From: Pirellulales bacterium
GTDB taxonomy: Bacteria; Planctomycetota; Planctomycetia; Pirellulales; JADZDJ01
NCBI GenBank assembly: GCA_020851115.1
Contig: JADZDJ010000064.1
Span: 1 to 43,020, forward strand
Direction of reading: 5' to 3'
Length of the DNA: 43,020 bases
The notes under the pieces were generated by a model. It did not search any database and was not told where the DNA came from. It worked only from the letters and a program-made list of their open reading frames with translations. Position 1 is the first letter of the stretch. The number at the start of each line of letters is the position of its first letter. Below are positions 41,527 to 43,020 of the stretch, one piece after another. The position numbers were made by a program, and so were the translations under genes.

Positions 41527-41609
41527 GGATGGGTGGCCGAGCGGTTTAAGGCACCGGTCTTGAAAACCGGCGTACGAAAGTACCGGGGGTTCGAATCCCT
41601 CCCCATCCG
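41527..41609 (+). tRNA. tRNA-Ser (anticodon UGA)
   Basis: A cloverleaf can be drawn: acceptor GGATGGG pairs with CCCATCC; the anticodon stem CCGGT/ACCGG holds the loop CTTGAAA, giving anticodon TGA for serine; a longer variable arm (around cgtacgaaagtac) is typical of class II tRNAs; the T-arm is GGGGG-TTCGAAT-CCCTC; discriminator base G. The 3' CCA is not encoded. The integrase frame on the other strand runs into its 3' two-thirds, so this is the likely attachment site of the element to the right. Confidence 0.93.
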
Positions 41610-42913
41610 CTAAGTCCTTTCGTACCAACGAGTTGCGTCTCGCAGGAACCCGCAAAAGTGGCGCACCTGACAGGGGTTGCGCTCGATTCGTGCGAATCCT
41701 TGCCACTGGCCGCGTGCGCGTGCTGCGCCGCATTTTGTGCGCTTTGTGCGCCGCTTTTTGCGCCGCCTTCGGATGATGGGCCGCTTGCTGCTTGGGCGAA
41801 GTGATTGTCGGTCGTTTGGAAGTAGTGCTTACGGGCAATGTCTTCGCTGTTACCAAGCCAATCGCAAACGACGTGCGATGGGAATTGTTCGGCCAATTCG
41901 GTTTGCCGCGTACTGCGTAGGTTGTGGAACAGCCGGGGCCAGGGCGTTACGCCAGCCCGCTTGATGATCCGCTCGAATTGCGTCCGCAGGTTGCAATTCC
42001 GCCAACCCGCGTTGCCTTGCGCACTTGCTCGCATTCGTTCATCGACCACAAATTCCGCCCCTTCGGGGGCCAGTTCAAAAGCCTCGGCCAGGATCGGCCG
42101 TAATTCGGCGAAGAGCGGAATCGTCCGCGTTCCCTTGCCAGCGTGATGTTCCGTTTTGGGCGACGTGACGACGATCCGGTTGTCGCTCCAATTAACATCC
42201 CGCCAGCGAAGCGAAAGCACTTCCGATGGGCAGCGTAGGCCGCCATATCGGGCCAGTGCCACGATTGCCCGCCAATCGACATTGGGGCAGGCTTCCAACA
42301 GTTTTGTGGTTTCGTCGGCCGTGATGAACCGCTCGCGGTTTGGCATCGAAGCCTTGACGGAAACGTCGGTGAACGGGCTTTCAGCAATCAGCCGTCGGCG
42401 TACGGCCGCGCGGAAAATCATCGTGGCGAATTGCAGTCGCTTGCGAACCGTCATCGGGGCCAGTTTCTTGCCGATCAAATGCAGTTTGTAGCGGTCGGCA
42501 TCGCCCGGAGAGATGGATTTTAACTCCTTTGTTGCCCCAAAGAATTCCACTAGCCCCGTTTCGCCCTGCCGCCAAATTTCCTTCGTAGCTGGTTTTACGT
42601 CGGTACGGTCCTTGACGTATGTTTTGATGAACGGCGACAGCGTTGCCGTCGCTTTTTCTTCGGGGTCGGCAATCAGGCCCACGCGAGCCAGCTTCGCGGC
42701 CAACGTTTGGGGCAGGCCCGATAGCCAAACCGCCGTTGGTTGCGGGATGGGTTGATTCGCCGTCTTGGCAACTAATAGGGCTTCCACGTGGCGAGCGATA
42801 GATTCCGCGTCGCGCTGGCTGATTTTCCCCAGTCGGATCGTCGGCCGCTTGCCGTCGGGAGCGACGAACAGAATCCGTCGGCTGCCGTTTTTGTCGCGCG
42901 CGATGCTTGCCAT
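41546..42913 (-). CDS. Tyrosine-recombinase site-specific integrase
   Basis: Phage/island integrase; 455 residues. The N-terminal part (TIRLGKISQRDAESIARHVE) and a SAM-like core-binding domain (about 95-175) precede the catalytic domain: ARYGGLRCPSEVLSLRW (first Arg), LFHNLRSTRQTEL (HxxR), WLGNSEDIARKHYFQT (Asn where the second His is usual, and the nucleophilic Tyr). The C-terminal ~65 residues are low-complexity Ala/Gln/Ser and end with a stretch that is simply the antisense translation of the tRNA-Ser, with the stop codon inside the tRNA (41546-41548). ATG at 42913 lies three bases after the stop of the upstream frame. It converges on the tRNA, as expected for a tRNA-targeted element. Confidence 0.92.
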   Translation of the reverse strand: MASIARDKNGSRRILFVAPDGKRPTIRLGKISQRDAESIARHVEALLVAKTANQPIPQPTAVWLSGLPQTLAAKLARVGLIADPEEKATATLSPFIKTYVKDRTDVKPATKEIWRQGETGLVEFFGATKELKSISPGDADRYKLHLIGKKLAPMTVRKRLQFATMIFRAAVRRRLIAESPFTDVSVKASMPNRERFITADETTKLLEACPNVDWRAIVALARYGGLRCPSEVLSLRWRDVNWSDNRIVVTSPKTEHHAGKGTRTIPLFAELRPILAEAFELAPEGAEFVVDERMRASAQGNAGWRNCNLRTQFERIIKRAGVTPWPRLFHNLRSTRQTELAEQFPSHVVCDWLGNSEDIARKHYFQTTDNHFAQAASGPSSEGGAKSGAQSAQNAAQHAHAASGKDSHESSATPVRCATFAGSCETQLVGTKGLSGWGGIRTPGTFVRRFSRPVP

Positions 42914-42916
42914 AGC

Positions 42917-43020
42917 TCACTTGCCTTTCGTTTTTTGGTTGCTCTTTTGCTTTGGGCCGACTAATTGCAGACCCAGATATTCGCCGATTTTGTCGCTGGC
43001 CTCTTGTCCCAGGCCACAAA
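42917..43020 (-). CDS. C-terminus of a gene upstream of the integrase (partial)
   Basis: A minus-strand frame enters from the right edge and stops at 42917-42919, three bases before the integrase ATG. Its last residues (EASDKIGEYLGLQLVGPK, then a Lys/Gln-rich basic tail) look like real protein. In integrated elements this place often holds an excisionase-like or DNA-binding protein, but too little is visible to identify it. Confidence 0.5.
   Translation of the reverse strand, partial: CGLGQEASDKIGEYLGLQLVGPKQKSNQKTKGK

Follow-up and report, generated by a model that had tools for sequence, protein, structure and literature searches.

A probable integrative element of a Pirellulales bacterium whose attachment site appears to lie within its own tyrosine integrase gene

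The window analyzed here, that is, the whole 43,020-nucleotide stretch of DNA, corresponds to an entire contig (C64; JADZDJ010000064.1) of a Pirellulales bacterium genome (G000; assembly GCA_020851115.1) totaling 5.2 Mb in 304 contigs. The sole tRNA gene found in it by ARAGORN, a tRNA-Ser(UGA), is entered from the opposite strand by the reading frame of an integrase [Table 1], the TAA stop codon of which (41548-41546) coincides with positions 20-22 of the tRNA, which we take, from the general layout of tRNAs, to be part of the D-loop. Because the integrase ends within the tRNA gene, its last ~20 residues are antisense tRNA, as proposed in the initial annotation of this DNA and now supported by the ARAGORN call and the limits of the open reading frame. 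The protein matched PF00589 (E = 1.7e-12, residues 196-370), PF13102 (E = 8e-6) and the PHROG family phrog_1 (E = 9.9e-36). Its active-site residues are presumably R227, K253, H330, R333 and Y364, by assignment to the R-K-HxxR-Y motif; together with the PF00589 match, they identify the catalytic domain of a tyrosine recombinase, and Y364 as well as the whole of the PF00589 match are retained in the form of the integrase encoded at attL. In the integrases of alignment A3 (e.g., L134 and L123), the His residue of HxxR was frequently Gln, and GNS was found where GHS is the usual tyrosine integrase motif. The ATG of the integrase gene is located 3 bp past the stop codon of a probable HTH gene (PF13443, E = 0.0016, under the curated cut-off) and is also preceded by a GAAAGG stretch.

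Table 1 Features of the element in the window and on contig C225. Positions without prefix refer to the window.
Feature	Position	Strand	Basis or remark
tRNA-Ser(UGA), integration target, regenerated at attL	41527..41610	+	ARAGORN
attL core, T-arm to tRNA 3' end, identical to attR core	41585..41609	+	25 bp exact repeat
Tyrosine integrase, short (integrated) form, 455 aa, ATG to TAA	41546..42913	-	ORF and Pfam
Putative arm-type repeat, integrase side, three GCGGCGCA copies, in coding sequence	41724..41769	-	binding predicted
Probable Cro/C1-type HTH gene, 3' end (start at C225:4275)	42917..43020	-	3 bp upstream of int
attR core	C225:308-332	-	25 bp exact repeat of the tRNA 3' end
Predicted C-terminal extension of int	C225:333-533		between attR core and next ORFs; sequence reading
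Putative partner repeat, inside C-terminal extension	C225:367-406		pairs with 41724..41769; binding predicted

The other end of the element was sought by searching the whole of G000 with a 24-base probe corresponding to the tRNA 3' end, allowing up to three mismatches. The probe matched two places, both with zero mismatch: the attL site of the window and C225:308-331 on the minus strand. The initial annotation had placed the attachment core in the 3' part of the tRNA, had seen no second copy of the tRNA 3' end in the window and had concluded that the element reaches to the right of position 43020. These statements hold: the core is a 25-bp segment with an exact copy on C225, that copy is the only other match of the probe in the genome, and the direct repeat expected to the right is present as an attR, which leaves the reading of this DNA as an island standing. 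No tRNA was found on the attR part of C225, as an attR predicts; the element thus displays an intact tRNA gene at attL and a 3' fragment at attR, the arrangement of an element that targets a tRNA gene. From core to core it measures 5508 bp. The window ends in 70 bases that are found, reversed, at the very start of C225. Since this 70-bp overlap is also present at 100% identity inside a third contig (C212), the internal join between C64 and C225 is not unique whereas the att pair is, and the join relies on the uniqueness of the latter and on the shared break point of the two contigs. The ORFs of the element on C225 share one strand and consist of the extension described below, two ORFs of unknown function, a gene for an HTH_17 protein (excisionase-like in PHROGs, E = 3.3e-9), another unknown, a gene for an AAA_25 ATPase and the HTH gene, which is followed by int. 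With the 307-bp flank to the right of attR, neither a syntenic relative nor an empty site was found among the 30 genomes searched; the flank matched only repeats of the same genome and one 23-bp stretch elsewhere. Parts of this chromosomal segment just past attR (C225:1-307) recur at 97-100% identity on contigs C260, C92 and C152.

The attP site was then built by placing the core between its flanks from C225 and from the window. The integrase frame was open through attP and met its TGA stop 67 codons beyond the core, which yields a protein of 510 rather than 455 residues; in the integrated state, the core is followed by 12 antisense-tRNA residues instead of the 67-codon extension. Judging from the rejoined sequence, the attP of this element lies inside its own integrase gene, and integration is predicted to strip a conserved C-terminal helical hairpin from the enzyme while the catalytic domain is kept. 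That the end of the integrase would depend on the copy of the core carried at attP, as anticipated in the initial annotation, is thus borne out by an attP form that is 67 codons longer and ends in a conserved C-terminal domain. A second element of the same genome, located on C212, targets a tmRNA gene; both of its ends are found on one contig, and it spans 6216 bp and encodes a 498-aa integrase across attP.

A related integrase was detected at E <= 1e-60 in 66 of the 117 genomes searched (own genome included), the records of the named relatives being those of Planctomycetaceae, Pirellulales, Planctomycetota and Aeoliella. Among them, the culturable Aeoliella straminimaris encodes a related integrase that ends at a tRNA-Val. 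Eighty-three loci (the own locus, L061-L140, L014 and L017), hand-picked by position and contig extent, were examined. The integrase stop codon fell inside a tRNA gene in 61 of them (Val, 16; Ser, 11; Glu, 11; Met, 8; Arg, 4; Leu, 3; Asn, 3; Gln, 2; Lys, 2; and one called SeC) and outside a nearby tRNA in three further loci (L098, L112 and L114). The scripted tRNA-end test failed in 19 loci, six of which have a tRNA within 1.5 kb and three of which (L072, L081 and L115) end in a tmRNA gene. The attR sites of the relatives were sought as DNA repeats of the tRNA end, a procedure that is blind to reading frames, using a repeat criterion that was tightened after a first inspection of 42 loci. In this first pass, a repeat of the tRNA end was present in 28 loci, and the integrase frame was open past the core in 26 of these. 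The 26 open extensions ranged from 21 to 97 codons with a median of 59. In the two alternative phases, the medians were 25 and 16 (Mann-Whitney p = 8e-7, 26 pairs); when each extension was paired with the longer of its two alternatives, the test reached p = 0.035 only, and other-phase readings of at least 21 and at least 45 codons were found in 28 and 12 of 52 cases, respectively. In L098, the repeat is present yet the integrase stops before the tRNA. In L131, the best repeat (43 bp) comes without an extension, and a second repeat (24/25 bases) is followed by an in-frame extension yielding a protein of 508 aa; the latter is not a blind case, as this second repeat was inspected after an extension HMM match had been seen beside it. 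Two of the three tmRNA loci displayed a repeat (that on C212, 498 aa, and L115, 534 aa), and no attR-like repeat was found in the third, L072. In total, 29 of the 30 loci with an attR-like repeat were open in frame through attP (27 with tRNA and two with tmRNA targets). As read from these loci, the location of attP inside int is a trait of the family. For 34 tRNA-ending integrases, neither attR nor extension was found in the fetched stretch, which ranged from 89 bases to more than 17 kb.

Seventeen of the extensions align as GAxSGA...DxxLAxVxxAWPxLPxxxRxxILAxV. Leave-one-out HMMs matched the integrase frame in 23 of the 26 extensions at E <= 2e-4, with one weaker match in another frame in L082; the short extensions of L092, L093 and L095, which were also outside the HMM training sets, yielded no HMM match. 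In the 20 of 26 extensions harboring the helix motif, differences per site amounted to 0.50, 0.39 and 0.62 at codon positions 1, 2 and 3, respectively, and residue entropy was lowest in the integrase frame (1.75 versus 2.30 and 2.48). A codon test on the copies found in G000, several of which are decayed, had a mixed outcome, and the own extension matched no Pfam or PHROG family at E <= 0.01. Across genomes, the HMM of 17 extensions matched 66 of 117 genomes at E <= 1e-6, and the extension HMM matched 43 of 294 genomes of the phylum at E <= 1e-7 (own genome included), many of them over the helices alone. Many of the phylum matches, and likewise L166, covered only the hairpin part within ORFs of ~80-130 codons; such hairpin-only ORFs may represent small proteins in their own right or what is left at the attR of integrases from other families.

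Natural genes in which the extension is continuous with the integrase were found in IMG/VR. Scanning this collection with alignment A3 yielded 46 loci, and scanning it with the window protein alone yielded no match. In nine of the 46 loci, representing six distinct ones (L242, for instance, is a truncated copy of L213), the extension forms part of the integrase ORF, and no tRNA gene was found in the locus. Matching to the tRNAs of other genomes revealed a tRNA 3' end inside the frame in four of the six distinct long genes, with core scores of 21 for tRNA-Glu in L203 (21/21 bases), 21 for tRNA-Val in L223, 19 for tRNA-Val in L213 and 16 for tRNA-Ser in L209, shuffled regions reaching at most 12. 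The long integrases of L201/L202 and L216 carry the extension with no recognizable tRNA core found, and may use another target. Five other IMG/VR loci (L197, L200, L214, L218 and L235) run into tRNA genes in the manner of proviruses; the other 32 displayed no extension at E <= 1e-5 and no tRNA overlap, some of them being cut by contig ends. The long and short states of the integrase both occur in nature, though in different genomes. On chromosomes, integrase remnants joined in frame to an extension through a core-like stretch were found in L070, L177, L179, L189 and L015, among which L070 and L179 look like tandem arrays. The continuation of L211, compared to the L209 record in search of a circular permutation, gave no match. 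Ten ORFs beside IMG/VR integrases were tried for phage hallmarks: one proved to be an integrase itself, and the others gave only a ParB-like match (L216) and a match to a single family without known function. With so few phage hallmarks beside the integrases, the 'viral' label of these loci rests on IMG/VR.

The natural long integrase L211 (492 aa) was modeled from an alignment of 45 rows, with a mean pLDDT of 84.7 and a pTM of 0.68. The model displays, in this order, an N-terminal strand-strand-strand-helix domain (residues 3-52), core-binding helices and a catalytic domain extending to residue ~386, followed by a linker modeled as disordered (residues 384-457, pLDDT <50) and by the hairpin (residues 463-491), the block means of which reached pLDDT values of 90-97. 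The same hairpin was obtained in the model of the natural fused piece from L070. In a Foldseek search with L211, full-length lambda Int (1z1b) came first, with 378 aligned columns and a TM score of 0.46 by query length. The flanking repeats of L211 encode residues 373-380 and 446-453 and its core encodes residues ~427-433, which places most of attP within the low-confidence linker.

The repeats in question are the same direct repeat on both sides of the core, 67-175 bases away from it on the integrase side and 31-62 bases away on the extension side. Their best scores had a median of 17.75 for the two sides of the same element, compared to 8.0 across elements and 8.0 for inverted repeats. Scores of at least 12 were obtained for 22 of the 26 elements, and in 17 of these 22 the repeat is tandem with a period of 12. 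The extension of some other element matched as well in 14 of the 26 cases, and none did so in 12. Repeats were weak in L063, L091, L095 and L111, the score of L111 being below that of its best shuffle. Four of the IMG/VR long genes displayed the same repeat pattern with scores of 19.5-22. The motif GGCGCA[AC]AAA was counted four times in the own element, always within the repeats, and is absent from the first 41.5 kb of the window. The flanking repeats are probably arm-type integrase sites, and we infer that they are bound by the N-terminal domain of the integrase.

We are highly confident that this locus harbors a small integrative element with attP within its own tyrosine integrase gene, the C-terminus of which would be exchanged by integration. 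In the excised circle, int would encode the long, 510-aa protein, in which N-terminal, core-binding and catalytic domains are followed by a flexible linker and a two-helix hairpin; the core (the tRNA 3' end) and the probable arm-type repeats on either side of it would lie in the coding sequence of the linker. Recombination with the tRNA gene would split int behind the catalytic domain; after integration, attL would hold the 455-aa integrase ending in antisense tRNA and attR the orphaned codons of the hairpin, and excision would restore the long form. Less certain is the proposal that, owing to the hairpin, the long form is not equivalent to the short one in its activity or stability. The protein would then report the state of the element and bias the direction of recombination, the long form favoring integration and the short form, together with the excisionase-like HTH_17 protein, favoring excision. 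A difference in action between the two forms, by which the enzyme would carry a record of the element's state, is in our judgment the most likely reading, at about even odds. We give the same even weight to the broader view of a bacterial, non-suicidal self-disrupting integrase in which a full attP with arm sites is encoded within a disordered linker, the tRNA or tmRNA gene that is hit writes the tail, and the editing of the C-terminus turns an integrating enzyme into one that excises or rests.

It is possible, if somewhat doubtful, that attP merely overlaps the 3' part of int and that the extension is translated in the circle without any role, only the DNA sites being of importance. The beginning of the extension is indeed largely taken up by arm-like repeats, the catalytic domain is complete in the short form such that the extension would be dispensable for chemistry, and three of the 26 extensions are short and unlike the others; arguing against such passive packing are the conservation of the hairpin beyond the repeats, the codon-position signature and the high confidence of the model. 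A switch in stability, whereby one of the two tails would serve as a degradation signal and integration would stabilize or destabilize the integrase, is unlikely: the repressor of mycobacteriophage BPs has the same layout in the accessible parts of PMC4557955 and PMC9262239, with attP in the gene and loss of the C-terminus, but an ssrA-like LAA ending is present in none of the 26 extensions and the tails provided by tRNAs vary with the target. Expression of the extension as a separate gene at attR in the integrated state is very improbable. Its TTG, GTG and ATG codons, the first at C225:411, could serve such a gene, but the own extension has no ATG, GTG or TTG in frame before the repeat region ends, and the extension is fused to int in the six distinct IMG/VR contigs. 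With no in-frame start codon ahead of the point where the repeats end, the orphaned extension of the own element most plausibly owes its conservation to selection acting on the excised state. Finally, reading frames antisense to tRNA genes are often open and are a common artefact of annotation, and the long other-phase readings and the modest paired test fit a frame that is open beyond attR by accident, an explanation with next to no probability that was rejected on the natural unbroken genes, the in-phase opening of 29 of 30 loci, the conserved protein and the frame-length and HMM tests.

An integrase gene containing its own attP shares features with several known systems. With the heterobivalent integrases of the lambda type, it has in common the catalytic and core-binding domains, the predicted N-terminal strand-strand-strand-helix unit and a core with repeats on both sides; unlike in that type, attP and the repeats are here inside int, and an additional C-terminal hairpin is lost upon integration. 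The suicidal integrases of archaeal SSV-type elements likewise have attP inside int, a gene split by integration and a tRNA target. Integration there separates the N-terminal from the catalytic part, whereas here the last 67 residues would be cut off and the catalytic domain left intact; Phage_integr_3 (PF16795), a mark of the SSV type, was not among the Pfam matches of the window integrase at E <= 0.01. Self-disrupting recombinases are described as exclusive to archaea in the accessible part of PMC8371274, a statement that a planctomycete family of such integrases would contradict.

The integration-dependent immunity of BPs also involves attP within a gene, a tRNA target and loss of the C-terminus. 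There, as far as the accessible parts of PMC4557955 and PMC9262239 go, the gene encodes the repressor, which bears an ssrA-like tag, and arm-type sites are absent, whereas here the gene is int. An attP of lambda size within a gene would, according to the accessible part of PMC9262239, severely constrain the protein; sites encoded in a linker modeled as disordered would offer a way round this constraint. Haloarchaeal pleolipoviruses similarly have a coding sequence that is complete only in the circle, although in the portion of PMC7911831 at hand the coding sequence across attP is a separate gene downstream of int rather than int itself. The target, the regenerated gene at attL and the attR fragment are shared with the tRNA and tmRNA islands of Islander, the definition of which, as it appears in the accessible part of PMC4383910, does not include an attP inside int, unlike the present case. 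In a literature search, covering few subscription papers, no description of a bacterial integrase gene with attP inside it was encountered. Cases in which attP and the int 3' end share a few bases are known.

The proposed coupling of enzyme form to the state of the element is a testable model. It would explain the odd antisense-tRNA ends of these integrases as natural products of integration. Only excised elements (or adjoining tandem copies) would encode the full-length protein, and cloning such an integrase from an integrated copy would yield the shortened form.

Beyond chromosomes and IMG/VR, five matches were found in plasmids, with less than 31% identity to the window integrase, and the C-terminal piece of L134 matched nothing in plasmids or in the phage collection. 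G000 itself harbors at least six related integrases at or beside different genes (tmRNA and the tRNAs for Met, Arg, Glu and Val, besides Ser), found on C212, C130, C78, C99 and C96 in addition to the window, with remnants on C65 and C248. Two of these integrases, L006 on C78 and L007 on C99, share 92% DNA identity up to the tRNA end while targeting tRNA-Arg(CCT) and tRNA-Glu(CTC), respectively, a similarity that hints at a recent change of target or at looseness in target choice.
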